Source: a virus
DNA length: 47,767 nucleotides
IMG/VR virus record: IMGVR_UViG_3300030061_000503
Span: 1-47,767 of that record
Direction: 5' to 3' (one strand)
Of this stretch, positions 2-22,254 are shown one piece after another. Below the pieces are notes generated by a model. That model saw only the letters and a program-made list of their open reading frames with translations. It searched no databases and was not told the DNA's origin. Both the position numbers and the translations under genes were made by a program. Positions within the stretch are counted from its first letter, which is position 1. Every line of letters starts with the position of its first letter.

Positions 2-1870
2 CCGAAACCTGATAAAGCTCTTCCGTATCTAGTCGCTGGTGCAGCATTAATTAACTCAGGTGAAAAAGGTGACAGTTGGGGCACAGCTTTATCTAATGCA
101 TTTTTACAATATGCGGTAGGTTCTAATAAAGAGAAAAAAGAATATCGTGATGCATTAGCCAGTATGGATATGAACAAAGCTAAAGCTATGCAAGGTCTTG
201 CTAGTAGTTTATTGCTTGAAGACGCAAAAACACAAAAACAGTTTGCTCAAAAGTTGGTAACTGGTGATGTTGGATTATATAAAATAGAACAAAACGGAGA
301 AGTATTAAATAGACCAGCAGCATTTAGAGATTTTGATTTAACGTTCTATCAAAACAACCCGCAACTGGGTGTAAAAGTAATCGGTAAGTGGAGACCAGAA
401 GACGGTAATTTAAAAAACTACACCGTAACAGATAAAAACGGTAGAAAATCGCTTGCAATGATGACACAAGATCAGGTTAAACAGTACGTGGCTAATGATA
501 CATTTGCAAATATCACAGAAGGTAATGAATTAACTGGTATGAAATTATACACTGTTGATGGGCAAGATGCAATGATGACAACTGTGGAGGCTAGACAAGC
601 ACAAGACGATGGTAAAGAGATCTCGTTAGCAGGTCGTATGATGGAAGTAACAGACACTAAGGATAACATAACTACTTTTATTTCAGAGGGTCAAATTAGA
701 GCTCAAGCTAAAGCAGGCACAGGTCGATACATTGTAGCGAATCAAACCTTCTTAAGTATGTCAGATGGTCAAGGTGGGCAGACTATAGCTTATGGAACTC
801 CAGATCAAATATACGGTATAACAGGTCAACAAGGTGCTCGAAAAGCCAGAGAGGTTTTTGATACTCAATACCAAGCTGCAACTATGAATAGAGATAGAAT
901 CCTTTCAACTATAGACACTTTGAAAGACATACACAAGTACGCAGAAGACCAAGGATCAGACATACTTTTCGGTCTTGCAGGAGATGGTGTTAAACTAGGT
1001 AGAGCTGTGCTCACTACTGCAGACCAGTTAGGGCAGTTATTTACTAAAGGTAATAATTTTAATTTCTACCAGAGTAAAACTGCAGACGGAGAGATCGTAC
1101 AAGGTACGTCTGTGAAAATGAATCAAGGTAATTTTAAAAATATGATTTATGACAGTCCTGAATTTCAAGAAGCCATGAGCTCAGGTATGGGTCAGTATTT
1201 AATAGAGTCTGGATTAAATAAAGTAGAAGCAGAAAATTTAATATTTAGACTTGCTTTATCAAGTGCTATGTTAGAAGGTCAAAAAGGAAGAGACATATCG
1301 GATAGAGATATCATACTCTGGTTGAGACAAGCTGGAGAAGGTGCGAATGACAAAAGAGAATTTTTTAGAATAATAGATAACTTAGAGTATTACGCTGTTG
1401 ACTATGTGGATAAACTAGAGCAACAAGTAAGCAGAAGTCCGTACAGAAAAGCTAACCCTGATGGACCAGGCACAATAGGTGTGTTAGAGGATGCTTACGG
1501 GAGAGAAAATGGTATTTTCGCTAAAGATAAAACGTATATTCCAACTCCAGGAAATAGAATAGACGGTAATCCGTATGAATCAATAGAAGAAAGAAGGGTA
1601 CGTTTACGAGATAGAAGAGGTCCAGGGAGAACAGCTACGGGTTCAACAGGAGAACAGTTTGTAGTTCCAGAATCAGGTATGGCACCGTCTGGTGTAGGTA
1701 ATACAACAGTCGATGGACTAATGAGAGAAGTTTTAAAAAGTTCAGTACCGTTAGGAAGAATGGCAAGTTTGAGACAAAACAATCGACAAAGTTATGAATT
1801 ATTAAGAAAGTATATATTAGAGCTAAAAGATAAAGACCCAGAAGTTATGAAATTACTAGGAGCACAGTAG
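2..1870 (+). CDS. Large virion-type protein, 5' end cut by the window
   Basis: The frame is open from base 2, so the true start lies outside the window; 622 residues are visible. There is no transmembrane segment or enzyme motif. It is a soluble, helix-rich protein; around residue 415 is a stretch (EGQKGRDISDRD) that I recall from structural proteins of marine podoviruses. It is followed with a one-base overlap (TAG/GTG) by another very large protein and then a third, a layout typical of internal or ejection virion proteins at the end of the late operon. The role as an internal virion protein is inferred from context and family memory, not from a defined domain. Confidence 0.75.
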   Translation, partial: PKPDKALPYLVAGAALINSGEKGDSWGTALSNAFLQYAVGSNKEKKEYRDALASMDMNKAKAMQGLASSLLLEDAKTQKQFAQKLVTGDVGLYKIEQNGEVLNRPAAFRDFDLTFYQNNPQLGVKVIGKWRPEDGNLKNYTVTDKNGRKSLAMMTQDQVKQYVANDTFANITEGNELTGMKLYTVDGQDAMMTTVEARQAQDDGKEISLAGRMMEVTDTKDNITTFISEGQIRAQAKAGTGRYIVANQTFLSMSDGQGGQTIAYGTPDQIYGITGQQGARKAREVFDTQYQAATMNRDRILSTIDTLKDIHKYAEDQGSDILFGLAGDGVKLGRAVLTTADQLGQLFTKGNNFNFYQSKTADGEIVQGTSVKMNQGNFKNMIYDSPEFQEAMSSGMGQYLIESGLNKVEAENLIFRLALSSAMLEGQKGRDISDRDIILWLRQAGEGANDKREFFRIIDNLEYYAVDYVDKLEQQVSRSPYRKANPDGPGTIGVLEDAYGRENGIFAKDKTYIPTPGNRIDGNPYESIEERRVRLRDRRGPGRTATGSTGEQFVVPESGMAPSGVGNTTVDGLMREVLKSSVPLGRMASLRQNNRQSYELLRKYILELKDKDPEVMKLLGAQ

Positions 1871-4830
1871 TGGCTGGTCCACAAGACAATATAGTAGATC
1901 AAATACTGGACGATTATTTAGCTAATCAAGCTAAACCTGAGATAGTTCCCTTCACAGGTGCTTCATCAGGAACAGGTTCTAAATTTGATCCAATAAATCA
2001 ACAAATTTTGAGTGATTATGGCTATCAAAGACAGTTTATTGGTCCACGCGGTGGTCAAAATATCGGTGCTCAACAAGATGCTTTTAATAGAGCAATACTA
2101 GCAGATGATCCTAGAGCTTTACAAAATTATCAACTAGCTGATCCAGAGACTTTATCTCAATACACAGGTGTAGATCTTGAACAAGGTCCAACTCCTGGTA
2201 GAGCTATAAGAGATTTAACATTTTTACCTGACGCTATCAAATTAGATCCTGAAAAAGGTCCAGATGCTGTGACTCGAATATTACAAGATAATTACAGAGA
2301 AGCAGGTGTAGACTTCCCACCAGATTTTGACTGGAATGTTCGTACTGACCCGACTATGGACAATCAATTTATATTTAACGATCCTGTAACAGGATCCGTC
2401 AGACCAGTAAATCCTCCAGGAATGAATCTAGAAGATATCAAAGCGTTCTCTACTCCATTAGCAGCAGAAATATTACCAGCGATCGGTACAATGGCTCTTA
2501 CTAAAAATGTTCCAGCTTCAATATTAGCAGAAGCAGGCGGTCATTACGCATGGAGAAAATATAATTTAGAATCTCAAAAAGAAAAAGGATACATACCTGA
2601 TAACTACCCCGTAGATGCTCAAGCTATGAAAGATGCGGGTTGGGTTGCACTTTTTAGCGGTAGTGCTGCTGGTGCTTATTCGTTATATAAAACTATAAAT
2701 CAAATAGGTGGCTTATCTTCAACTTTAGATCAATCTGCGTTTATGAACTCTTGGGATCAACTTAATGCGGAAGGATTAATTGACCCTAAAACAATGACTA
2801 GTCCTCAAGTTCTTATGGCGGGGGGTGTAGATACTCAAGGCATACCGTTAGAGCAGTATTTAAAAAATAGAAGTGCCGAGCCTGGGAAATGGGGAAAACT
2901 TTTATCTGAAAAATACAGAGATCAAGAACAACAACTAGCTGTTATAGTAGATAATTTAATTAATGATTTCGGTATATCTAGGGAACAAGCAGACGCAATG
3001 GCTGGTCAGTATATAAAGAAAGAAGCAGGTGAAGATATACAGGCAGTTGTACAAACAGATATAAGTCAGCTTAAAGGATCTTTTGAAGAAGAGATTACTA
3101 ACCTTACATCTCAGGCAGATAACATACTAACAGATCTAACAGCTGGTAAAGTCACTCCTCAAGAAGCAGGTTTAGCTATTCGCAATACAGCAGTAACAGC
3201 TAAAGCATTAAATAGATCTAAATTCGATGAAGCATTTGAAGACGCTTATAAAATGGCAGGTTTCAAAGGGAATGCTAAACCTTTTGATTACTCTTCTTTA
3301 GTTCCTCTTTTAGACAGAGCATTGAAAAAAGAAAGTGAACGAGCACTTCCTGACACAAAACTTATAGGTACTCTTAATTTAATAAAAGGTCAAATAGATA
3401 GTGCTCGTAATGCTAAGTTTTCATTTGATGCTTTTACAAAAGATTTAAGAGGTATACAAGGCGAGATAAACAAACTAGCTAATATGGGCGGTGAGTACGG
3501 AGAGTTAGTAACTCTACGAGACGAACTTGTAGAAATACGCAAAAACGCATTACAGAATAAAAACCCAAAAGCACTTGAAAGATATCAAGAAGGTGAAGAA
3601 CTTTTTAAACGGAATAGAGCAGAGTTTGATAATGATATTATCAAACGAATAACTAATACGCAAGAAGCCAGTAAAGATTTGTTTAAAATGGGGGATAAAG
3701 AAGCCTACAATAATTTAGTAACAGTTCTGCGTAATAATGTAGACACAAGTTATTTAAGTAAACTTATAGACGATCCTGAAAATACAGGTGCTTTTTACGG
3801 TATACGAGACGGTCTTCGTGGTGATTTTTATTCTAAAATAGTGGATGATACTAATCCAGATGGTTTATTAAGACCGAAAGGCGGTAATCAATATAACAAA
3901 TGGATGGGAGAGAATGAGACTTTACTCAAAAGGTTTTTTAACGAAGATGAGTTATCTGAGTTTACAAGTCCAGGAGATTTTATAAATAATTTCAATAACA
4001 GAATAAAAGAACAACAAGATTTAATAGATGCTGTCGGAAATAATAACACTTTAAAATCGATCGTAAAATCAGATACTCCAGAAACAATATTTGATAGCAC
4101 ATGGAACAGAACCAATGCTACACCGACTATGGAACTTAAAGAAGTTCTTGACCGACAAGGTGCTAATGAACTTATCGACACTTACAAAAGTTATATCGCT
4201 AGAGACCTTTTAAACAATGTTCAAAAACCTTCAAAGTTTATTTTAGGTGATAAAGCAATCAACGGTAATTCGCTTATAAAATATGCGAATGATTATAGCG
4301 ATCAGTTAACTGAGTGGTATGGTCGACCATTTGTGAATGGGTTATTAAAAATCGGTAACAGATTAAGAGTATTTGACGACGCTAATATAGCTGAGTTAGG
4401 TGTAGATGAAGGTAGTTTATTTAAAATACTAAACCAAGGTGCTCGTACTTATGTAGGTTTATTCACTACTGCAGGTCGATTATTAACATCTGTGAAACTT
4501 GCTAAAGCTAGTATAGAGCGAGCAAGATATATGAATCTATTAGTAAATCCAGATAAATTAGCAGAAGCTATCTCGAGAGCTAAAACATTTGATCATCCAG
4601 CAACAAATCTTTTAGTACGAACTTTAGGTAGAGAAGGTCAAGAAAATATTTTTGAAGGCGACACTGTTTATTCTGACGAAACACCACGGGCACCAGTCAC
4701 AACAGAAGGGCTTATGATGCTTGGTCCAGGTGCTCAACAAGACGAAGAAACAGTCGAGGCTTTATATAATCGTGGTGGGCACGTAATAAAAACTTTAACC
4801 GTTCCTCTAAAATATGGATTTAGTAAGTAA
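1870..4830 (+). CDS. Large probable internal/ejection virion protein
   Basis: 986 residues starting at GTG, which overlaps the previous stop codon by one base (translational coupling). Two short hydrophobic, alanine/glycine-rich stretches lie near residues 197-222 and 255-275. The middle third is charged and heptad-like, so coiled coil is likely. No catalytic motif was recognised; in particular there is no lytic transglycosylase signature. Size, position next to two other large late genes and membrane-prone segments fit a podoviral ejection protein, but this is inference. Confidence 0.7.
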   Translation: MAGPQDNIVDQILDDYLANQAKPEIVPFTGASSGTGSKFDPINQQILSDYGYQRQFIGPRGGQNIGAQQDAFNRAILADDPRALQNYQLADPETLSQYTGVDLEQGPTPGRAIRDLTFLPDAIKLDPEKGPDAVTRILQDNYREAGVDFPPDFDWNVRTDPTMDNQFIFNDPVTGSVRPVNPPGMNLEDIKAFSTPLAAEILPAIGTMALTKNVPASILAEAGGHYAWRKYNLESQKEKGYIPDNYPVDAQAMKDAGWVALFSGSAAGAYSLYKTINQIGGLSSTLDQSAFMNSWDQLNAEGLIDPKTMTSPQVLMAGGVDTQGIPLEQYLKNRSAEPGKWGKLLSEKYRDQEQQLAVIVDNLINDFGISREQADAMAGQYIKKEAGEDIQAVVQTDISQLKGSFEEEITNLTSQADNILTDLTAGKVTPQEAGLAIRNTAVTAKALNRSKFDEAFEDAYKMAGFKGNAKPFDYSSLVPLLDRALKKESERALPDTKLIGTLNLIKGQIDSARNAKFSFDAFTKDLRGIQGEINKLANMGGEYGELVTLRDELVEIRKNALQNKNPKALERYQEGEELFKRNRAEFDNDIIKRITNTQEASKDLFKMGDKEAYNNLVTVLRNNVDTSYLSKLIDDPENTGAFYGIRDGLRGDFYSKIVDDTNPDGLLRPKGGNQYNKWMGENETLLKRFFNEDELSEFTSPGDFINNFNNRIKEQQDLIDAVGNNNTLKSIVKSDTPETIFDSTWNRTNATPTMELKEVLDRQGANELIDTYKSYIARDLLNNVQKPSKFILGDKAINGNSLIKYANDYSDQLTEWYGRPFVNGLLKIGNRLRVFDDANIAELGVDEGSLFKILNQGARTYVGLFTTAGRLLTSVKLAKASIERARYMNLLVNPDKLAEAISRAKTFDHPATNLLVRTLGREGQENIFEGDTVYSDETPRAPVTTEGLMMLGPGAQQDEETVEALYNRGGHVIKTLTVPLKYGFSK

Positions 4831-4831
4831 T

Positions 4832-5947
4832 ATGGGAATACTAGCAGACATAAAATCAAATATAGAAACTAGAAGAGATATGCCATCTGTCGGTGGCGGT
4901 ATCATGGATAATTTTAAAAACACTAGTCGCTTTACCACAGAAGATTTAGTCAATTCAAGTCAAAATAATCTAATGCCTATACCAGATCAACTTGGTTTGA
5001 ATGCTATGCAGAGAAACACATATGGTAATTTTCTAGCAAACAGAGTCCCTGAACCAGAGCCTGTTGACCCTACTACAGATCCACTTACAGAATCTATAAC
5101 AGGTAAAGAAACAATGTACGGTGTCCCTGGAGCAGCAAGTGCAGCAGTCAACATGGGCGGTAGTCTTAGTGGCGGTGGGTTAGGTGGTTTCGTTGCACCT
5201 GTGAGTGCTCGTGATATGTTTGTAACTGACCAAGCTCAATCGTATGAAAAAAGTTTTGAGATAGATCCTGAACAAGATCAAGTACCGTCAGGAACATCTC
5301 TAGCACCTATGCCTACAAAATTCAGCGATGTTGGTCCAGGAACACAGTTTTCTAACAAAGGTGAGATGATACAACAAGGTCCAAATGTGACCTCTGGTAA
5401 GTATGCTTCTTCAAAAGGTCCAAAAGGTGGTCGAAATTATTTAAAAGCATTAGGTGAGTCTCACGCTGCATTGAAGGCACAGATGGAAGCGAGCAGAAGA
5501 AACGATTTAGCAAGTGCTATGCAAACTTTGTATGGTGCTGCTGGTTCTAGTTTCGAGTCTGGTCGTAACGAGTACACTGAGTCTGGTGATTACGCTAGAG
5601 ACAAAGCAATCAGAGATGCTGAGTTTGATGCGATGCGTGCAGGTAATGCACCTCCTACTCGTGAAGAAACTGCTAGAAGATTAGCAGAACTACAGGCTTC
5701 AATAGGTTTCGGTGGAGCTATGGCACCTGCTAATGATCCAATGAGTACAAGAGTTGAGCCAAACCCAGTGCCTACTAATTTTGAGTTAGTGTCTGGGTAT
5801 AATGTGCCAGCTCCAATCCAAGGTATCCCATCACTGTCAACAGTGAACGAAACAACAATGTCCCCCGTAGAAAGAAATCGTAGAGCTAGGTTAGGTCGTG
5901 GTCGTATGATGATGAACTATGGCGGTATAGCTACTTTCGGTCTATAA
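4832..5947 (+). CDS. Late virion-type protein with C-terminal NYGG tail
   Basis: 371 residues from ATG 4832, which sits one base after the preceding stop; an in-frame ATG at 4814 would overlap the previous gene by 17 bases and has no better ribosome site. The protein is low in complexity, with Gly/Ser/Pro-rich and Ala-rich stretches and a charged helix near residues 195-285. It ends in Arg/Gly and MMMNYGG-type residues. The same MNYGG string begins the small protein at 37981, and such tails are common in marine phage structural proteins. Its last 6 bases overlap the end of the convergent helicase gene. Function unknown; structural role inferred. Confidence 0.65.
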   Translation: MGILADIKSNIETRRDMPSVGGGIMDNFKNTSRFTTEDLVNSSQNNLMPIPDQLGLNAMQRNTYGNFLANRVPEPEPVDPTTDPLTESITGKETMYGVPGAASAAVNMGGSLSGGGLGGFVAPVSARDMFVTDQAQSYEKSFEIDPEQDQVPSGTSLAPMPTKFSDVGPGTQFSNKGEMIQQGPNVTSGKYASSKGPKGGRNYLKALGESHAALKAQMEASRRNDLASAMQTLYGAAGSSFESGRNEYTESGDYARDKAIRDAEFDAMRAGNAPPTREETARRLAELQASIGFGGAMAPANDPMSTRVEPNPVPTNFELVSGYNVPAPIQGIPSLSTVNETTMSPVERNRRARLGRGRMMMNYGGIATFGL

Positions 5948-7756: not shown

Positions 7757-8323
7757 ATGAGACCTAAAGAAAACATTGCCGATAAATTCGAAGAAGATAC
7801 TAAACAGCAAACAGATATCAAAGAAAAAGATTTAAGTAACATAAGCGAACTAGGTAGAGAACTAGAAGCTATGCAAACTATTATAGAAGCAGAAGAAAAA
7901 AGACTTAAAGAATTAAAAGAAGAGTATCGTAAATTAAGTGAAGATACACTACCTAATAAACTCAGAGAGATAGGCATAAGCGAGTTTAAATTAGAAGACG
8001 GTACACAAATGTCTATACAGCAATATTACTCCGCTAAAATAACTCCCGAGAATCGTGAAATATGTTTTAACTGGTTAGAACATAATGGACTCGGTGACGT
8101 TATTAAGAATACAGTTTCAGCTAACTTCGGTAGAGGTGAAGACGAAGTGGCACAAGAACTTATGGCAACGCTAGAGAAAGAAGGACATTCACTTACTCAA
8201 AGAAAGTGGGTGGAACCTATGACTCTAAAAGCACTTGTCCGTGAGCAGGTGGAACAAGGGAACGACCTACCCTTGGAAACCTTTAATGTTTATATAGGTC
8301 AAAAAATCAAGGTAAAGAAATAA
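7757..8323 (+). CDS. Conserved phage replication-module protein with N-terminal coiled coil
   Basis: 188 residues. Residues 25-68 form a strongly charged coiled coil. The C-terminal two thirds (FKLEDGT, YYSAKITPENRE, NTVSANFGRGEDE, LKALVREQ) match a conserved family I recall from many phages, always beside a protein like the next gene; no biochemical function is known to me. First gene of the early operon; its stop overlaps the ATG of the next gene by one base, so the two are probably made in fixed ratio. A partner or loader of the SSB-like protein is a guess. Confidence 0.75.
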   Translation: MRPKENIADKFEEDTKQQTDIKEKDLSNISELGRELEAMQTIIEAEEKRLKELKEEYRKLSEDTLPNKLREIGISEFKLEDGTQMSIQQYYSAKITPENREICFNWLEHNGLGDVIKNTVSANFGRGEDEVAQELMATLEKEGHSLTQRKWVEPMTLKALVREQVEQGNDLPLETFNVYIGQKIKVKK

Positions 8324-9102
8324 TGACTGATAACAAAGAAGAAAATGACAAGAAAGAAGTAACTAAGAAAACTTCAACAGACGTAGCTATCTCTTCTGCA
8401 TTCGAAGAGGATGCAGGCGGTGGTTTAGAAAATATGACAGCGGATGATTTTACTATCCCTCGTTTAAAAATTCTACAAGCATTGAGTCCTGAGGTTAACA
8501 AACGAGATGGTAAATACCTAGATGGTGCAGCAGCAGGTGATATCACCAACACTGTGACTAAAGAGTTATACACAGAGGACAGTGTATGTACAGTAATACC
8601 TGTAGCGTATAAACGTATGTATCTGGAGTGGCAACCTCGTGAGAGCGGTGGTGGTTTAGTTAACCAACACACAGATGCAAGTATCTTAGCTGAAACTAAG
8701 AAAGATGCTAATTACGCAGACGTATTGCCTAATGGTAACTACATACAGACTTCTGCTACTCACTACTGCTTAGTAGTAGGTGCGGGTGATTCCTTTCAGC
8801 AAGTGATGATTCCTATGGCAGGAACACAGTTAAAGAAATCACGTACGTGGAACTCTGTTATGTCTAGTATCAAAACTAAATCTAGTAAAGGTAATGTTTT
8901 TACTCCCCCTTCCTACAGCCAGAAATACAAACTTTCTACAGTCCAAGAGTCTAATGACCGTGGTAATTGGTTTGGTTGGAATATTGAGTTGATAGGCGCG
9001 TTGACAGAAACAGAGATGCATCTCTATGAATCTGCTAAGTATTTTGCTAATACAGTAACTGCAGATGCCCCTGCAACAGCAAGCGAAGACGTACCGTTTT
9101 AA
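8323..9102 (+). CDS. Probable single-stranded DNA-binding protein
   Basis: 259 residues. It ends in an acidic tail, SEDVPF, the hallmark protein-interaction tip of bacterial-type SSBs (D-x-PF), preceded by a flexible Ala/Thr/Pro linker. The body (about 45-235) is beta-rich with a YLEWQPRE segment typical of a phage family found beside primases and polymerases. The N-terminal 35 residues are charged and disordered. Role inferred: coats single-stranded DNA and recruits replication partners through the tail. I see no clear OB-fold signature by eye, so the fold remains open. Confidence 0.65.
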   Translation: MTDNKEENDKKEVTKKTSTDVAISSAFEEDAGGGLENMTADDFTIPRLKILQALSPEVNKRDGKYLDGAAAGDITNTVTKELYTEDSVCTVIPVAYKRMYLEWQPRESGGGLVNQHTDASILAETKKDANYADVLPNGNYIQTSATHYCLVVGAGDSFQQVMIPMAGTQLKKSRTWNSVMSSIKTKSSKGNVFTPPSYSQKYKLSTVQESNDRGNWFGWNIELIGALTETEMHLYESAKYFANTVTADAPATASEDVPF

Positions 9103-12247: not shown

Positions 12248-12709
12248 ATGAATATATTTAAACTAGACAATACTATACAAGGCTGTGCTCAAATGCACTG
12301 CGATAAACACGTATCTAAAATGATACTTGAGTCTGCTCAAATGTTATGTACAGCTATGTGGTCTAATGATGAAGAAGCACCTTACAAACCTGTACATGCT
12401 AAACACCCTTGTACCTTATGGGCTGGAGCTAGTCTTGATAACTGGCTGTGGTTAAAAGACTTAACTATATACTTAAACGAGGAGTTTTGCTGGCGATACG
12501 ATAGAACTGTCAATCATAAATCAGCAGACGTTGTACTTTCTTTACCTAACCCGAATATAAAAAGTAAAGGATTACAACAGCACCCTCAGTGTATGCCTGA
12601 TGAGTACAAAGTTGAAAATGACGCAATAAAAGCGTATCGTAATTATTATATAGGAGAAAAGCATTTCGCTAAGTGGACTAAACGAGGAGTACCAGAATGG
12701 TATATGTAA
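12248..12709 (+). CDS. Conserved phage protein, first gene of modification cluster
   Basis: 153 residues. The N-terminal CDKHVSKMILESAQMLCTA stretch (18-36), the HPCTLWAG segment and the C-terminal MPDEYK, AYRNYY, FAKW and P-x-W blocks are a conserved phage family I recognise, often found beside thymidylate synthase-like and DNA-modification genes. Some databases loosely label it a pyrimidine-dimer glycosylase, but I see no catalytic match to DenV, so function is unassigned. Start ATG 12248 has no clear ribosome site. It overlaps the next gene by 13 bases. Confidence 0.7.
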   Translation: MNIFKLDNTIQGCAQMHCDKHVSKMILESAQMLCTAMWSNDEEAPYKPVHAKHPCTLWAGASLDNWLWLKDLTIYLNEEFCWRYDRTVNHKSADVVLSLPNPNIKSKGLQQHPQCMPDEYKVENDAIKAYRNYYIGEKHFAKWTKRGVPEWYM

Positions 12710-13539
12710 ATACAAAGTGGGATAACGTAGAAAATTTTTTCGGTTATATAAACGAAAGACATTTTATATATTTAAAACGACAGGACAATGAAAAACCGCC
12801 TTGGACTGAGGACAAGATAATACAGACCTATAGTTTCTGTAATGTTTATAGGGAATTAGATAAGGTTACTATATGGATAAGGGAGAACTGGAAAGAACCA
12901 TATAAAGACCACCCCCATATACCTTTCGCTATGTCTGTGGCACGTCAGATAAACCACCCACCAACTTTAAAAGCGATAGGTTTTCCTGAGTCATGGGATC
13001 CTACACGTGTAAAAGCTATAATGCAGGATAGAATGGATAATAAAAAGAAAGTGTACACTGGTGCGTATATGTTAACTGGCACTTTAGGAGGAACTAAGGT
13101 AGAACAAACTATAGATAAAATACTCACACCTTTATTCAATAACCCACCGAAACTTTACGAAGACAGTTTAGAAAAAACTTGGAAAGAATATCTACCGTAT
13201 GCTGGATTCAGTGGTTTTATGGCTTATGAGGTTGTAACTGATTTGAGATTTACAAAGCATTTAGAAAATGCTAAAGATATCATGACATGGGCTAATGCTG
13301 GTCCAGGAGCGAAACGTGGACTCAATAGAATACATAATAGAAAATTAGAGCAAACTATAAAGAAAGACCAGTTGACCGCAGAGATGAAAGAACTGTTAGA
13401 TGTCTCTGATGATTACCTAGACTTAGCGTTACCGCGTTTAGAAATGAGAGAAATAGAGCATTGCTTGTGTGAGTTTGATAAGTATGAGAGAGTACGTTTA
13501 GGTGAAGGCAGACCGAGGTCAAAATATAAGTATGGATAA
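12697..13539 (+). CDS. 5-hmdU DNA kinase helical-domain / aGPT-PPlase-like base-modification protein
   Basis: 280 residues. The conserved run is INERHFIYLKR (18-28), PWT, SFCNVYRELDKVTIWIRENW (46-65), FAMSVARQINHP (77-88), VYTGAYM (119-125), GFMAYEVVTDLR (173-184) and TWANAGPGAKRGLNRI (197-212). This fits the helical family that Iyer, Aravind and colleagues placed in phage thymine-hypermodification operons (5-hmdU DNA kinase helical domain, related to the alpha-glutamyl/putrescinyl thymine pyrophosphorylases). The GPGAKRGLNRI stretch resembles a helix-hairpin-helix DNA contact. There is no P-loop, so it is not itself a kinase. Neighbours (TAGT-like, Nmad1-like, ThyA-like) support a role on hydroxymethyluracil in DNA. 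Exact reaction unknown. Confidence 0.7.
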   Translation: MVYVNTKWDNVENFFGYINERHFIYLKRQDNEKPPWTEDKIIQTYSFCNVYRELDKVTIWIRENWKEPYKDHPHIPFAMSVARQINHPPTLKAIGFPESWDPTRVKAIMQDRMDNKKKVYTGAYMLTGTLGGTKVEQTIDKILTPLFNNPPKLYEDSLEKTWKEYLPYAGFSGFMAYEVVTDLRFTKHLENAKDIMTWANAGPGAKRGLNRIHNRKLEQTIKKDQLTAEMKELLDVSDDYLDLALPRLEMREIEHCLCEFDKYERVRLGEGRPRSKYKYG

Positions 13540-14038
13540 TTTAGATAATTTATTTGAGGTAGTGCGTGGCGGTACAATAAAAAGGTATCACACGCTAGAA
13601 ACCATTGGTGAACAGTCCGTAGGTGCTCACTCTTGGGGTGTGGCTATAATACTACAGTATCTAGAACCTAATATAAGTAAGATAGCTATATTAAAGGCAC
13701 TTACCCATGATGTAGCTGAACTATATACAGGAGATATTCCCGCACCTGTTAAATGGGATAACCCTGATTTAATCAAATCATTAAAATCAATAGAGCTTGC
13801 TTACGAGAAGAAACTAGACATAGATTACAGCACTGTTTTAGGAAAAAAGGAAGCACTTTTATTTAAACAAGCCGACATGTTTGAACTGTTATTTTTCTGT
13901 ATGCGTCAAAGAAAAATGGGTAACACTAATATGAACATGGTATTTAGCAACGGTGTTGAATACTTAGCAAATCAAAAGTTAAATAAACGCGGTTCAAATC
14001 TACTCGGTAAACTTATAGAGGAGTATGGAGGCATATGA
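13532..14038 (+). CDS. HD-domain 5'-nucleotidase-like hydrolase (YfbR type)
   Basis: 168 residues from ATG 13532, which overlaps the previous stop; an in-frame GTG at 13502 adds ten unlikely residues. HD-superfamily metal ligands: H33 in AHSW, H59-D60 in THDVAEL, then GDIPAPVK, and a later Asp in KQADMFE. The layout resembles YfbR/HDDC2 deoxynucleoside 5'-monophosphatases. In this cluster it could remove canonical dTMP or recycle nucleotides so that a modified pyrimidine replaces thymine; that is inference from context. Confidence 0.75.
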   Translation: MDNLDNLFEVVRGGTIKRYHTLETIGEQSVGAHSWGVAIILQYLEPNISKIAILKALTHDVAELYTGDIPAPVKWDNPDLIKSLKSIELAYEKKLDIDYSTVLGKKEALLFKQADMFELLFFCMRQRKMGNTNMNMVFSNGVEYLANQKLNKRGSNLLGKLIEEYGGI

Positions 14039-14355
14039 AAAAGCAGAAAAAATTTCAAGAAATGCTAGACATAGTTGAACAAGATGTAGACGAGCTTGTA
14101 GAAGCAGAGAAAAGTTATGGCAATAGTTGGCGTAAGCGTGGCGGTATCGGTGCGTTTATGATGCTGGCTCGTAAATGGGATAGGATAGAGAATCAAGTTA
14201 GATGCCATAACTTTGATATATTCTCTGCGATAAGAAATGATACAAGACCAGAAGGTATCATGGACGACATACACGATTTAAGAAGATATTTAATATTAGT
14301 AGAGCAGTACGCAACTAGGAGCGATGATGAAGATATACATACCGACGAGGGGTAG
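14035..14355 (+). CDS. Nmad1-like (DUF1599) nucleotide-modification-associated protein
   Basis: 106 residues. SYGNSWRKRGGIGAFMML (23-40), ARKWDRIENQV and the C-terminal GIMDDIHDLRRYLILVE helix match, from memory, the DUF1599 family renamed nucleotide modification associated domain 1. It starts at ATG inside an ATGA overlap with the HD gene and its end overlaps the glycosyltransferase start, so all are co-translated. The family's chemistry is not established; a role in making or handling modified nucleotides is presumed from its repeated linkage to such genes. Confidence 0.65.
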   Translation: MKKQKKFQEMLDIVEQDVDELVEAEKSYGNSWRKRGGIGAFMMLARKWDRIENQVRCHNFDIFSAIRNDTRPEGIMDDIHDLRRYLILVEQYATRSDDEDIHTDEG

Positions 14356-15118
14356 ACCCGATAACCAAGAAACACTCAAGTGGTTTCCAGAAAGCATGAT
14401 TAAAGATGGAACAGTAGTGTTAGCCATAGATGAAGACGAGCAGGATAAATACACTAAATACCCAGATGTAGAAAAGTTGATAGTCCCTTCATTCATTAAA
14501 GGTATTAGTTATAAAAGAAAATACATAATAGAACAAAGTTACGATCCACGTGTAGTTATGCTAGACGATGATTTACGGTTTTATGTCCGTAAGAGCGCGG
14601 ACGATTGGCATTTAAGATATGCAGAGCCAGAAGAATATCCTGCTTTATTTGGGTTACTTGATGAATGGATGGATAAAGGTTACGCTCATGTAGGGATAAG
14701 TGCTAGAGAAGGTAATAATCGAGTAGAAGAGTTAGCCGTAGAGAATACTAGATATATGAGAGTATTGGGGTATAATCTAGAAGCTTTCCCTAAAGATATT
14801 GAGTGGGGTAGAACTCGGGTGATGGAAGATTTTGATATATCTTTACAACTGCTTAGGAGAGGTAAATCCTGTAAGGTAAGTTATTTCTATGCTCAGGGTC
14901 AAAAGTCTTCTAATGCTGACGGTGGCTGTAGTGAGTGGAGAACTATCGACGTACATAACGCAGGTGCTGATAGGCTACATGAACTCCACCCTAATTGTGT
15001 TAGGGTGGTAGAAAAACAAACTAAAACTGCGTGGAATGGTTTACCTCGTAGGGATGTAATAGTAGGATGGAAAAAAGCATACAAGGAAGGTGTAGAATAT
15101 GCAAACAATAACAGTTAG
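14327..15118 (+). CDS. TAGT-like (TET-associated) GT-A glycosyltransferase
   Basis: 263 residues. ATG 14327 is preferred over ATG 14324 because the AGGAG is five bases away. N-terminal KIYIPTRGRP (2-11) is the GT-A nucleotide-sugar start; MLDDDL (78-83) gives the metal-binding DxD; GISAREGNN (123-131), MEDFD (166-170), GGCSEWRT (199-206) and a C-terminal VGWKKAYKEG follow. This pattern resembles the TAGT family described beside TET/JBP enzymes in phages, which transfers sugars to hydroxymethylated pyrimidines in DNA. No TET/JBP gene is visible here, so the hydroxymethyl group would have to come from the nucleotide pool. Glycosyltransferase fold is fairly sure; DNA as acceptor is inferred. Confidence 0.7.
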   Translation: MKIYIPTRGRPDNQETLKWFPESMIKDGTVVLAIDEDEQDKYTKYPDVEKLIVPSFIKGISYKRKYIIEQSYDPRVVMLDDDLRFYVRKSADDWHLRYAEPEEYPALFGLLDEWMDKGYAHVGISAREGNNRVEELAVENTRYMRVLGYNLEAFPKDIEWGRTRVMEDFDISLQLLRRGKSCKVSYFYAQGQKSSNADGGCSEWRTIDVHNAGADRLHELHPNCVRVVEKQTKTAWNGLPRRDVIVGWKKAYKEGVEYANNNS

Positions 15119-16136
15119 AAATGTACATGAAGCACTGCCCAGAGGTCTAGATTATCTAGATCAAAGCGGAGTATTATTAGACAGTAGGAACGGTATGATG
15201 TATGAAGCACCGTGTCCCGTCACCACTGTTTATAAAAAACCTGATGAACGAGTAGTTTTCTGGGCGCATCGTAACGCTAACCCTTATTTTCATTTTATAG
15301 AAGGGTTATGGATGTTGAAAGGCGGTAAAGATTTAGAAACTGTAGAGTGGTATGCTAAAAGCATGAGAAACTACAGTGACGATGGTAATATTTTGTGGGG
15401 AGCCTATGGTTGGAGGTGGCGTAGTTTTTTCCAGCAAGACCAGTTAAAAGTAATTATTGGGATGCTTAGGAAAAACCCAGACGATAGGAGAGCGGTCTTA
15501 CAAATGTGGAGTATAAAAGATTTAGCTCGTCAAGGTAAAGATGTGCCTTGTAATACTTGTATATATTTTAAGATACGAGATGGTTTACTAAACATGACTG
15601 TATCTAACAGGTCTAATGATGTAATATGGGGTGCGTATGGTGCTAACGCAGTACACATGTCCATGCTTCAAGAATATATGGCACGTAGGATTGGTGTAGG
15701 GATAGGTGTGTATAATCAAGTGAGCGACAGCTATCACGCATATAAAGATATTTTCGATGATCTTTTACAGAAGTTTGCTGAAGATGATATACTAGACTAC
15801 TATGTTCAATCATTACCGCAAAGCGTATCAAGCATGAATCCCTACAGAACTGGGCAGGTAGAACCTTACCCCATGATATCTCAGTACTGTACAGAAACAT
15901 GGGATTATGAGTTAGGGTTATTTTTCCGCAGAAAGCCACTAGAAAAGTCAAGTCTTAAACATAAAGATAAGTTTAGAAAAGCAGATCCTTTCTGGGCAGA
16001 AGTAGCCATACCTATACAAGACTCTTGGGAATACTGGAAGGAAGGTAACATAAGTTCTGCCATAGATAAACTAGAGGATTGTAAAGCTACTGACTGGAAA
16101 AAAGCATGCGTGGAGTGGCTAGAGAGGAAAGTATGA
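15099..16136 (+). CDS. ThyA-family enzyme: thymidylate synthase or dUMP hydroxymethylase
   Basis: 345 residues. ThyA-fold motifs: FIEGLWML with E68, NILWGAYGWRWR (97-108), RRAVLQMW, catalytic C151 in VPCNTCIYF, NRSNDVIWGAYGAN (170-183) and SYHAY (211-215). Two things differ from ordinary thymidylate synthase. The PCHxxxQF box is PCNTCIYF, closer to T4 dCMP hydroxymethylase, and the usual C-terminal Met-Ala-Val lid is replaced by an 80-residue helical tail. The base-selecting Asn (N183) is kept, which favours dUMP over dCMP. With its neighbours this suggests 5-hydroxymethyl-dUMP synthesis, but plain dTMP synthesis cannot be excluded. It overlaps the glycosyltransferase gene by 20 bases. Confidence 0.88.
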   Translation: MQTITVRNVHEALPRGLDYLDQSGVLLDSRNGMMYEAPCPVTTVYKKPDERVVFWAHRNANPYFHFIEGLWMLKGGKDLETVEWYAKSMRNYSDDGNILWGAYGWRWRSFFQQDQLKVIIGMLRKNPDDRRAVLQMWSIKDLARQGKDVPCNTCIYFKIRDGLLNMTVSNRSNDVIWGAYGANAVHMSMLQEYMARRIGVGIGVYNQVSDSYHAYKDIFDDLLQKFAEDDILDYYVQSLPQSVSSMNPYRTGQVEPYPMISQYCTETWDYELGLFFRRKPLEKSSLKHKDKFRKADPFWAEVAIPIQDSWEYWKEGNISSAIDKLEDCKATDWKKACVEWLERKV

Positions 16137-16813
16137 TACCACAATGGTCGTATAGTAGGTTAGGCTGTTATGAAAGATGCCCTAAGCAAGCAGAATTTAA
16201 GTTTATAAAGAAGATAAAAGAACCTCAACATCCTGCAATGGAAAGAGGTAAAAATATACATCAATTATGTGAAGATTACATAAGAGGAAATATAGAAGAA
16301 ATACCTAAAGAGTTATCAGAGTTTGAAGACGCATTTGATATGCTTAAAGATTTATATCTACACGGTCATGTTATATGTGAAAGTGACTGGGCAATAACTA
16401 CTGAGTGGTCAAAAACAGGGTGGTTTGCTGAAGACACTTGGGGTAGAGCTAAAGTAGATGCGTTTGTATATGAAGAAGGTTTAAGTAAAGAGGCAAGAGT
16501 GATAGATTTTAAAACTGGTAGGTATCAGGGTAATCAAGAAGCACATAGAGAACAGTGTGAATTTTATGGATCTGTGGCTTTGAACAGATACCCCGAGCTA
16601 GAAAGTATAATCACAGAGATGTGGTATTTAGATCATGGTAAGATAGATAGATATGTTTACACACCTGCGAGTATAAAATTTAAGCAAGAAAGGATACATA
16701 ACCGAGCTATGGCTATGACTACTGCAACAGAGTTCCCTGCTAAACCTTCTAAATTTGGTTGTAAATGGTGTTATTTCGGACAACAAAACATGTGTAGAGA
16801 GGCAATTAGTTAA
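16133..16813 (+). CDS. Cas4/RecB-like PD-(D/E)XK nuclease with Cys cluster
   Basis: 226 residues from ATG 16133 (ATGA overlap with the ThyA stop; AGAGG upstream); a longer start at 16106 is unlikely. WSYSRLGCYERCP at the start, ERGKNIH (37-43), AKVDA with D109, and VIDFKTGR with D125 and K127 form the nuclease core. C12/C16 plus C210, C213 and C221 match the iron-sulfur pattern of Cas4/AddB nucleases. There are no cas1/cas2 genes or CRISPR array, so it is a phage exonuclease for recombination or end processing. DNA polymerase follows with a one-base overlap. Confidence 0.87.
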   Translation: MIPQWSYSRLGCYERCPKQAEFKFIKKIKEPQHPAMERGKNIHQLCEDYIRGNIEEIPKELSEFEDAFDMLKDLYLHGHVICESDWAITTEWSKTGWFAEDTWGRAKVDAFVYEEGLSKEARVIDFKTGRYQGNQEAHREQCEFYGSVALNRYPELESIITEMWYLDHGKIDRYVYTPASIKFKQERIHNRAMAMTTATEFPAKPSKFGCKWCYFGQQNMCREAIS

Positions 16814-18696
16814 TGCAGAATCCACTGTTTCCACCTGACGTAGACTGGTCACCGCCTACCTCGTTCCCTGATTTAAGAGGGCAAAAGACCATAGCGATTG
16901 ATTTAGAAACTAAAGATCCATGGCTCATGTCCCATGGTCCAGGTTGGGCATTTAAGGATAGAGGTTTTATTATAGGTATTGCGATAGCTACCGAGGGATA
17001 TAAAGCATACTTTCCTGTGGCTCATGAAGTAGGTGGTAATTTAGATAAAACAGTGGTTTATAGATGGTTGAAAAAACAACTAGAAGCACCTAATGAAAAA
17101 GTATTTCATAACGCTCAGTACGACGTAGGTTGGTTAATGAGAGAAGGATTTACTATCAATGGTAAAATACACGATACTATGATGGCAGCTCCATTGCTCA
17201 ATGAGAATCAGTATGGGTATTCTTTAAACAAGGTAGGTAAAGAATATTTAGGTGAAGAAAAAGATGAGTCCATGTTGATAGAGGCTGCACAGGTGTACGG
17301 TATAAACCCGAAAGCAGAAATGTATAGGCTACCGCCAGAGTATGTAGGAAACTACGCTGAGCAGGACGCAGATTTAACCTACAGGCTATGGAATAAGCTA
17401 AAGGTAAGTATGGCTGGAGAAAATATTCAACCTATATACGAACTAGAGAGTTCTTTATTACCTGTGTTGGTAGATATGCGTATGAGGGGAGTCAGGATAG
17501 ATGTAGATAAATCTCAACAGGTCAAGAAAAAATTAAGACAAGCAGAAAATAAAATAGTCTCTGAAATAAAAAGGTGGTATGGACTAAAACCAGATTTATG
17601 GGCAGCACAATCACTATCACAAGTGTTCGATAGGGCAGGTCTTGAGTATCCTAAAACACCTAAGACCAATGCACCTAGTTTTCAAGCTAAGTGGCTTGAA
17701 GAACATACACACAAACTACCACTAGCGATAGCTAAAGCAAGAAAATTAAACAAAGCACGTACCACATTTATAGACAAGATGATACTAGAACATTTAGTAG
17801 ACGGTAGGATACACGGAGAACTTCACCCTCTCAGGTCTGATGATGGCGGTACTGTTACTGGTAGATTTAGTTGCTCTAAACCTAACCTTCAACAAGTGCC
17901 TGCTAGAGATCCTGAGATTGGTCCACTTATACGAGGTTTATTTATACCAGAAGAGGATTGTCACTGGGGGTGTTTTGATTACTCTCAACAAGAACCTAGA
18001 CTAACGGTGCATTACTCAGTATTAACGCATCAAGAAGGAGCAGAGGAGGCAGCAGCAGATTACTCGGGTGATGCTGACTTTCATCAGATAGTAGCTGATA
18101 TGGCTAATATAACTCGTAAAGAGGCTAAGATTATTAACTTAGGATTAAGTTATGGTATGGGTAAAGAAAAGCTAACCCATCAGCTAGGTATAAGCCCAGA
18201 AGAAGCAGAAGTATTATTTGACCAGTATCATAAGCGAGTGCCTTTTGTCCGTGGATTACGGGACTCTGCAGCTCGTCAGGGGTCAAATAGGGGGTATGTC
18301 AACACTATACTTGGTCGTAAGTGTCGATTTAACCTTTATGAACCAGTAGACAGAAGAGCTCTACCACAACCTTATGAAAAGGCAGTTGAGGAGTACGGAA
18401 CTCAGTTAAGACGTGCGTACACATATAAAGCTATGAATCGTCTTATACAAGGTTCAGCAGCAGATATGACAAAACAAGCAATGCTGGATCTACACAACGA
18501 AGGTATTTTAGCGCATACACAAGTACATGATGAGTTAAATATATCTGTGAAAGATAAACCTGAGTGTGAAAAAGTAATGGAAATAATGCGAGACTGTGTT
18601 AAGTTAAAAGTACCAAACAAAGTTGATGGAGAGATAGGTAAAAACTGGGCAGATGTAACAGACTACAGGAAATATTTCAATGATGAAAAAAGCTAA
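16813..18696 (+). CDS. Family A DNA polymerase with 3'-5' exonuclease
   Basis: 627 residues. Proofreading motifs: D30-E32 in AIDLET, N100/D104 in HNAQYD, Y181/D185 in YAEQD. Polymerase motif A is DYSQQEPR (389-396); motif B is RKEAKIINLGLSYG (435-448), with K439 and Y447 at the E. coli K758 and Y766 positions; motif C is HDEL (572-575). The residue matching E. coli F762 is L443. There is no N-terminal 5'-3' exonuclease domain. This is the replicative polymerase, paired with the AEP primase and SSB-like protein upstream. ATG overlaps the preceding stop (TAATG). Confidence 0.96.
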   Translation: MQNPLFPPDVDWSPPTSFPDLRGQKTIAIDLETKDPWLMSHGPGWAFKDRGFIIGIAIATEGYKAYFPVAHEVGGNLDKTVVYRWLKKQLEAPNEKVFHNAQYDVGWLMREGFTINGKIHDTMMAAPLLNENQYGYSLNKVGKEYLGEEKDESMLIEAAQVYGINPKAEMYRLPPEYVGNYAEQDADLTYRLWNKLKVSMAGENIQPIYELESSLLPVLVDMRMRGVRIDVDKSQQVKKKLRQAENKIVSEIKRWYGLKPDLWAAQSLSQVFDRAGLEYPKTPKTNAPSFQAKWLEEHTHKLPLAIAKARKLNKARTTFIDKMILEHLVDGRIHGELHPLRSDDGGTVTGRFSCSKPNLQQVPARDPEIGPLIRGLFIPEEDCHWGCFDYSQQEPRLTVHYSVLTHQEGAEEAAADYSGDADFHQIVADMANITRKEAKIINLGLSYGMGKEKLTHQLGISPEEAEVLFDQYHKRVPFVRGLRDSAARQGSNRGYVNTILGRKCRFNLYEPVDRRALPQPYEKAVEEYGTQLRRAYTYKAMNRLIQGSAADMTKQAMLDLHNEGILAHTQVHDELNISVKDKPECEKVMEIMRDCVKLKVPNKVDGEIGKNWADVTDYRKYFNDEKS

Positions 18697-21552: not shown

Positions 21553-21784
21553 AATAACAGATGAAGTACCTATACCAGACCGTACTACACCTAGAAATAA
21601 TAAGTACGATCTACATAAAATGGGAATAGGCGACAGCTTTTCATTGCCCTATGACGGAGAAGCGGTGCAGAGGGTGAGAGTTGCAGTTTCTAACTACGGT
21701 ACTAGGAACGATAAAAAATTCACCACTCGTAAACTTGTAGAAGATAGCGGTGAACCTGTGTTTAGGGTTTGGAGAGTAGCGTGA
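21545..21784 (+). CDS. Small conserved-type phage hypothetical protein
   Basis: 79 residues. DKYDLHKMGIGDSF-like beginning and a basic, beta-rich second half (VRVAVSNYGTRNDKKFTTRK) look like a small folded phage protein of unknown role. ATG overlaps the previous gene and its stop overlaps the next start (GTGA). Confidence 0.6.
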   Translation: MYEITDEVPIPDRTTPRNNKYDLHKMGIGDSFSLPYDGEAVQRVRVAVSNYGTRNDKKFTTRKLVEDSGEPVFRVWRVA

Positions 21785-22254
21785 ATGATAAAAAACTCAC
21801 ACCTAAACAAGAAAAGTTTGCTCAGAACGTAGCGAAAGGTATGAAGAAAAAAGACGCTGCGAAAAAAGCAGGGTATAGTGATAAGAATGCAAGTAGAGCA
21901 GGAACTGTATTGGCAAGCAACAAAAATCCTGTAGTCAAGAAACGCATACAAGAGTTACAGACCAAAGCAGCAGATAAAGCGGTGGTAGATTTGACTACCC
22001 ATTTAACTGATCTCAAAGATATTCGTGACGGTGCTATGCGTAATGGAGCGTGGTCTGCTGCCGTAACAGCCGAGGTCAATAGAGGTAAAGCAGCAGGATT
22101 GTATGTGAATCGTAGTGAGATAGTCGTAAACAAAGTAGAGACTATGAACAAAGATCAAATACTTGCAAGAATGAAAGAAATATACCATGAAACAGGCGGT
22201 ATATTACCTACAGGAACACTTATAGAGGGCGACTATGAAGAAAAAACTGATTAA
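21781..22254 (+). CDS. Terminase small subunit (TerS)
   Basis: 157 residues from GTG 21781 (GTGA overlap; GGAGAG four bases upstream), preferred over TTG 21769. N-terminal LTPKQEKFAQNVAKGMKKKD-AAKKAGYS is the helix-turn-helix of the Terminase_2 family, followed by NPVVKKRIQEL and a helical oligomerisation region. It should bind the packaging site on phage DNA. Unusually it sits about 12 kb before terL, in the accessory region rather than in the packaging operon. Confidence 0.8.
   Translation: MNDKKLTPKQEKFAQNVAKGMKKKDAAKKAGYSDKNASRAGTVLASNKNPVVKKRIQELQTKAADKAVVDLTTHLTDLKDIRDGAMRNGAWSAAVTAEVNRGKAAGLYVNRSEIVVNKVETMNKDQILARMKEIYHETGGILPTGTLIEGDYEEKTD

Follow-up and report, generated by a model that had tools for sequence, protein, structure and literature searches.

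A predicted dUMP hydroxymethylase and its glycosyltransferase-bearing gene neighbourhood in a virus record from IMG/VR

The synthase gene and its neighbours

The DNA studied here, hereafter the window, is the whole of the IMG/VR virus record IMGVR_UViG_3300030061_000503, a linear sequence of 47,767 bases that is probably a fragment. Its plus strand carries, at positions 15099..16136, an ATG-initiated gene for a 345-aa protein of the thymidylate synthase family, a predicted dUMP hydroxymethylase with the residues C151-N152, D148 and N183 and with a C-terminus modelled as helical. An earlier note, made from the sequence alone, had read a ThyA homologue at this place, and the reading is borne out by the exact open reading frame and by matches to Pfam Thymidylat_synt (PF00303; E 1.1e-19, residues 68-225) and to phrog_5131 (E 3.2e-117, residues 1-344), E-values that put the family assignment far beyond chance.

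The genes upstream of the synthase lie on the same strand and overlap or nearly so. HMUDK_hel (PF18723; 12697..13539, +), a protein of 280 aa with a predicted HhH-GPD DNA-glycosylase-like fold and no P-loop, is directly preceded by a gene matching phrog_624, 'DNA binding protein' (12248..12709, +), and is followed by an HD/YfbR-like 5'-deoxynucleotidase (13502..14038, +) that probably controls the nucleotide pool, by a conserved 106-aa protein (14035..14355, +) assigned to a separate cluster (c3) with members in 70 of the 92 sequences clustered, and by a TAGT glycosyltransferase (PF20691; 14324..15118, +) of GT-A type with LDDDL as its DxD motif, the gene of which shares 20 bases with that of the hydroxymethylase. 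On the other side of the synthase lie a PD-(D/E)XK exonuclease (16106..16813, +), a conserved neighbour with a probable part in replication or recombination, and a family A DNA polymerase (16813..18696, +), which is a candidate for the insertion of hmdUTP.

The window TAGT scores 94 bits against PF20691 (cut-off 27.5), LDDDL or LDDDI is kept in 12/12 aligned TAGT sequences, and in 59 of the 61 loci with both genes the two share a strand and their starts lie within 1.2 kb of each other. Our tree separates the TAGTs that lie beside dUMP-type synthases from four T-even TAGTs (support 100/100); the TAGT of DLP6 falls on the dUMP-type side, and no synthase is annotated in the 12.8 kb of DLP6 that were examined.

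Several other features of the record and its relatives are worth mentioning. Many relatives have a dUTPase gene between the 106-aa gene and the TAGT (L008:8774-9229 and similar), where the window has the HD nucleotidase nearby instead, and an AlkB-like 2OG-Fe(II) oxygenase, not seen in the window cluster, often lies just upstream of HMUDK_hel (L008:6545-7120 and similar). Elsewhere in the window, three large ORFs (568, 986 and 377 aa) at 164-5947 match neither Pfam nor PHROGs, two proteins at 7757-9102 are related to gp33 and gp34 of cyanophage Pam3 (DUF7307, Pam3_Gp34) and are kept in most relatives, and a terminase small subunit-like gene (PF03592) lies at 21769-22254, well away from the gene for the large subunit at 34040.

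Active site, ancestry and fold of the synthase

When the window synthase was aligned with E. coli ThyA, T4 gp42, SPO1 gp29 and phage proteins, its R58, N61, M89, Y92, D148, C151-N152 and N183 corresponded to K48, H51, W80, W83, L143, C146-H147 and N177 of ThyA. C151, R171, S172, D174, H213 and Y215 are identical to the references, which preserves the residues of catalysis and phosphate binding; of the ThyA features, the PCH box, Leu143, Trp80 and His51 are absent, the synthase having N152, D148, M89 and N61. SPO1 gp29, whose own record calls it a dUMP hydroxymethylase, has the same residues at R58, N61, M89, D148, C151-N152 and N183, with Phe in place of Tyr92. The sequence therefore points to dUMP as substrate and to hydroxymethylation. 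In 80 rows, comprising the window synthase, 78 relatives and one T5-like ThyA control, C151, R171, S172, D174, N183, H213 and Y215 are invariant (80/80), and N61, D148 and N152 are each kept in 79/80, the lone variant presumably being the control.

The earlier note had given PCNT-C-IYF as the catalytic box and N183 as a retained base-selecting Asn, and both are there, the box as PCNTCIYF and the Asn in the synthase alignment. It had also compared the NRSNDVIWG motif with T4 dCMP hydroxymethylase; the motif is present, but the active site resembles those of SPO1 gp29 and M6 (PCN, Asn) more closely than that of T4 gp42 (MCT, Asp). Read directly from the motifs, which is also how the base-selecting residue of T4 gp42 was obtained, dUMP-type enzymes combine C-N with Asn, five T-even hydroxymethylases and the enzyme of phage G combine C-T with Asp, and ThyA combines C-H with Asn. 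The available text of one study names a D179N mutant of T4 dCMP hydroxymethylase (PMC6400193). Identity as a dCMP hydroxymethylase of the T4 gp42 type, which requires Asp, was rejected on the Asn and CN of the window protein. The CN and base-selecting Asn are common to the synthases of the window, LuckyBarnes, MW202897, L102 and L139, and the LuckyBarnes enzyme is, judged by these residues, of the dUMP type.

The maximum-likelihood tree of 53 proteins, built without the long-branched T5-like ThyA and without T4 gp42, groups the window synthase with those of M6, PaMx11, MW2, Sonora, Pam3 and RHph_I72 in a 44-member clade (96/98), and the four ThyA-type (PCH) proteins form a clade of their own (100/100). 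The phylogeny that the earlier note had called for thus leaves the window protein outside ThyA, although a tree that sets the window clade with ThyA against SPO1, Ackermannviridae, LuckyBarnes and phage G is not rejected by the AU test (p 0.345), so that the deep branching order is unsettled. Among named relatives, tblastn ranks Yuavirus phages first, with 47-48% identity over the full length. The DNA of M6 carries 5-(2-aminoethyl)deoxyuridine, which is thought, according to the part of the report available, to derive via 5-hmdU (PMC6449724).

The AlphaFold2 model of the synthase (38 sequences, mean pLDDT 91.4) consists solely of helices beyond residue 215, and its last three helices (297-314, 318-325 and 331-344) are well ordered. 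Its best structural neighbours are four entries of the CMP hydroxymethylase MilA (Z 33.9-34.4, 304-306 residues, up to residue 345), and Foldseek likewise puts MilA first; the FAD-dependent dCMP hydroxylase 9iqc (Z 22.7), the phage dCMP hydroxylase 9iqu (Z 22-23, the range it shares with 9iqc) and ThyAs (about 22) rank lower. The short ThyA-type tail that closes on folate is absent, as it is from T4 dCMP hydroxymethylase in the accessible portion of the literature (PMC6400193). The residues EVAI (301-304), which align by sequence with the ThyA tail PVAI, are not read as a lid, since in the model they sit within helix 297-314. That the lid is replaced by helices, as the earlier note had proposed, is what the model predicts; the stretch measures about 130 residues instead of some 80, and it is nothing out of the ordinary, as MilA superposes on it up to residue 345. 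We take the modelled C-terminus to be the MilA type of hydroxymethylase architecture.

Thymidylate synthase identity was rejected on residues, fold and tree. The proposal of dUMP as substrate and of hydroxymethylation as the reaction is supported by the residues shared with SPO1 gp29, by the Asn, by the MilA-like fold, by the separate ThyA clade and by the M6-like kin, and the 345-aa protein is very probably a dUMP hydroxymethylase. As such, it is a further member of an already known enzyme type, and it is the gene neighbourhood, a proposed kinase-free and glycosyltransferase-bearing branch of the 5-hmdU pathway, that is the more interesting part.

HMUDK_hel and its partner enzymes across loci

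The HMUDK_hel model (36 sequences, pLDDT 90.7) is almost all helical. Its top structural neighbour is PUGT, the 5-phosphomethyl-dU glycinyltransferase of PaMx11, with a Z of 11.1 over 218 residues that lies within the range common by chance for helical models, and the best Foldseek E of 0.18 is weak. All remaining neighbours listed are DNA glycosylases of the Ogg, Mag, MutY and EndoIII kind (Z 9.9-5.5, the highest being Ogg), and because the list is so uniform, all 50 rows listed being PUGT or HhH-type DNA glycosylases, a glycosylase-like fold can be argued. R21, D39, F47, R52, D55, Y124 and K134 are invariant in 21/21 sequences across all partner types, as are, for example, F174, D182, C258, E259, K262 and Y263. 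In Bacillus phage Goe26 a P-loop 5-hmdU kinase and HMUDK_hel are fused in one protein of 636 aa (L140:9128-11038); in the same phage a family A DNA polymerase is joined to a domain of the uracil-DNA-glycosylase superfamily (L140:13685-15499). It is tempting to suppose that HMUDK_hel presents the 5-hmdU base, a role that we hold tentatively. It is not always needed, since the 40-kb record of MW202897, with a TAGT and a hydroxymethylase, yielded no HMUDK_hel match.

Phages of the M6 type use a P-loop kinase to phosphorylate the 5-hmdU of their DNA, which is then loaded with amino acids. The window record, which may be incomplete, contains no match to the kinase profiles PF18748 and PF13671 and none to ADDT (PF18724). 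Fifty records were scanned, drawn from 81 (79 loci, the window and M6) mostly by leaving out contigs shorter than about 24 kb; HMUDK_hel was found in 50/50 and TAGT in 15/50, and PF18748 and ADDT each in a single record, that of M6. As a control, PF18748 matched 5/5 kinase-bearing phages (PaMx11 below the cut-off) and 0/13 others, 12 of these 13 having HMUDK_hel and LuckyBarnes, MW202897 and nACB2 being among them. The AAA_33 profile matched 4/44 records, none of them among the metagenome relatives, and missed M6 and MW2. Neither profile being fully sensitive, a Walker A scan was added, and the sole Walker A motif in the picked ORFs of the window and nine metagenome relatives belongs to a UvrD helicase. 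Nor was a kinase found in the 59- and 65-kb records of close relatives, which may themselves be incomplete. Amino-acid hypermodification of the M6 type was accordingly rejected for the window virus on the missing kinase and ADDT matches in the record.

A six-frame search, using profiles built from members of the same loci, which match by construction, gave 106 distinct loci with both HMUDK_hel and a synthase. TAGT alone accompanies the pair in 54 loci and c15, a SAM methyltransferase-like protein, alone in 38; the rest have kinase and ADDT (6), FkbM-like and GT-B-like proteins (3), TAGT and an FkbM-like protein (2), ADDT alone (1) or none of these (2), and the kinase occurs together with TAGT, c15 or GT-B in 0/106. 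Since loci were selected for their resemblance to the window synthase or TAGT, the counts describe this neighbourhood and not phages at large; L001, which is the window under another id, and 16 loci repeating counted contigs were left out. The c15 protein belongs to Methyltransf_23/11, and its 38 loci, all lacking TAGT, lie among L034-L081 (e.g., L035:8016-8864). An FkbM-like methyltransferase and a GT-B-like glycosyltransferase stand in the place of TAGT in L042 (7637-9976), L046 and L048. Of the two loci without a transferase, L040 begins at HMUDK_hel and L090 (Koji) has a P-loop kinase of another family; nACB2 is a locus with ADDT and no kinase match. We also noted that two genes recorded as 'terminase small subunit', L002:6716-7279 (M6 gp54) and L096:710-1372 (PhaxI), match PF18748 and are probably misannotated.

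On the best tree the partner type changes at least four times. The methyltransferase type as one clade is not rejected by the AU test (p 0.182), and the kinase type forms one clade with a support of 79/80; given these tests and this support, it is uncertain how often partners were swapped. The set of TAGT, HMUDK_hel and synthase recurs in the divergent contigs L102 and L139 and in Brevibacterium phage LuckyBarnes, which has consecutive genes for a 517-aa synthase, two TAGTs and HMUDK_hel (L083:7436-11451) and in whose complete isolate genome PF18748 found no kinase; used as a query, the HMUDK_hel of LuckyBarnes retrieved two loci only. One reading of these patterns, which we offer still more tentatively than the presenting role itself, is that HMUDK_hel is a common 5-hmdU-presenting subunit with exchangeable partners (P-loop kinase, TAGT, SAM methyltransferase, or GT-B with FkbM-type), the window DNA bearing glycosylated 5-hmdU and the methyltransferase clade perhaps methylated hmdU; for the c15 loci we consider such a methylated base possible.

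A proposed route to glycosylated 5-hmdU and its known counterparts

The best explanation of the locus, which we regard as fairly probable, is that 5-hmdU is made, incorporated and glycosylated. If the mechanism follows that of its homologues, C151 would attack C6 of dUMP, the one-carbon unit would come from methylene-tetrahydrofolate, and the exocyclic methylene would be quenched by water and not by hydride, giving 5-hydroxymethyl-dUMP. The pools may be tuned by the HD nucleotidase and, in some relatives, by the dUTPase, and the product would be converted to hmdUTP and enter phage DNA. There HMUDK_hel may help to present 5-hmdU, and the TAGT would add a sugar to the 5-hydroxymethyl group to form a glycosylated 5-hmdU akin to base J, a glycosyltransferase standing in for the two M6 enzymes, kinase and amino-acid transferase. 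A point against this is that the TAGT of T2 and T6, as far as the accessible text describes it, adds a second sugar (glucose) to an already glucosylated base (PMC13216743); action of a TAGT first on bare 5-hmdU would depart from that precedent and is putative. The beta-GT of T4 is described, in the part of the paper available, as glucosylating 5hmU in duplex only if it is mispaired with G (PMC4111573), which makes a presenting helper plausible for the ordinary hmU:A pair.

An alternative that we deem unlikely, yet the most serious, is that the enzyme is a dUMP hydroxymethylase and the DNA holds plain 5-hmdU or a form of it that bears phosphate or an amino acid, with a kinase supplied by the host or missing from the contig and a TAGT acting elsewhere, on the cell surface or a protein. 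The fragmentary contig would fit, as would HMUDK_hel, a known neighbour of the kinase to which it is fused in Goe26; against this, kinase profile matches are lacking in all 49 records besides M6, the three-gene set recurs in the complete genome of LuckyBarnes, in which no kinase match was found, and the TAGT gene overlaps the synthase gene. It is very improbable that the protein is a dUMP enzyme of the same fold and other chemistry, such as a thymidylate synthase or a flavin-dependent hydroxylase: the superfamily is shared, 9iqc and 9iqu appear at Z 22-23 and the AU test does not reject grouping the family with ThyA (p 0.345), but the protein shares with SPO1 gp29 a PCN instead of PCH, D148 instead of Leu, N61 instead of His and M89 instead of Trp, the match to MilA is far stronger (Z 34.4) and takes in the C-terminus, and the phage kin are known for 5-hmdU-derived DNA. 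Least probable of all is a dCMP hydroxymethylase whose 5-hmC the TAGT glycosylates in T-even style, as was published for LuckyBarnes: TAGT is known from 5-hmC systems in the accessible text of PMC13216743, and the LuckyBarnes genome was described, as far as its report is available, with a predicted dCMP hydroxymethylase and two glycosyltransferases (PMC6588365), but Asn and CN stand in all five synthases named above and Asp and CT in 5/5 T-even enzymes.

If 5-hmdU is indeed glycosylated in the window virus, a kinase-free branch of the 5-hmdU pathway would yield sugar-bearing thymine analogues in phages, HMUDK_hel would gain a role, the dCMP hydroxymethylase annotation of LuckyBarnes would be corrected, and enzymes for making base-J-like DNA would be at hand. 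At least some of the phages with solitary TAGTs would be explained as well, whose role a 2026 paper, in its accessible part, leaves open in 288 of 753 phage genomes (PMC13216743). Modified thymine is recognised by some host defences, Brig2 being one according to the available text (PMC13160076), and the sugar may therefore play a part in defence and counter-defence. Our literature search, made by title and the start of the abstract and with several key papers outside its reach, retrieved no report of glycosylated 5-hmdU in such a phage or of the pairing of HMUDK_hel with TAGT.

Among known systems, the closest are the dUMP hydroxymethylases of SPO1 (gp29) and of the Yuavirus or M6-like phages, with which the window enzyme shares its active-site residues. 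The gene order of M6 runs ADDT, PLP-type enzyme, radical SAM, P-loop kinase, HMUDK_hel, Nmad5, synthase and HD protein. In common with the thymidine hypermodification of M6 and PaMx11, the window retains the synthase, HMUDK_hel and the HD nucleotidase, and the HD and PolA neighbours are also those of M6; the rest was not found as far as tested, neither kinase or ADDT in the record nor, by Pfam in selected window ORFs, a PLP-type (PALP) or radical-SAM gene beside the synthase, and a TAGT is present instead. MilA (5jnh, 5b6d) shares the whole-chain fold including the helical C-terminus (Z 34.4, 25% identity), but its substrate is CMP, whereas the window protein carries Asn at the base-selecting position. 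A sugar on a modified uracil has a precedent in SP-15, whose DNA bears, in the accessible description, glucose and phosphoglucuronate on dihydroxypentyl-uracil (PMC5977210), although its synthases are Thy1-type and its gene set differs from that of the window. The glycosylation of 5-hmC in T-even phages (gp42, alpha/beta-GT, TAGT) likewise sets a hydroxymethylase beside a TAGT, but there the base is cytosine, where uracil is predicted for the window, the TAGT groups are separate, and HMUDK_hel is present in the window. Finally, base J, the glucosyl-hydroxymethyluracil of kinetoplastids, is made by oxidising T in DNA; it belongs to the same predicted product class, whereas the hmdU of the window virus would be made as a nucleotide.
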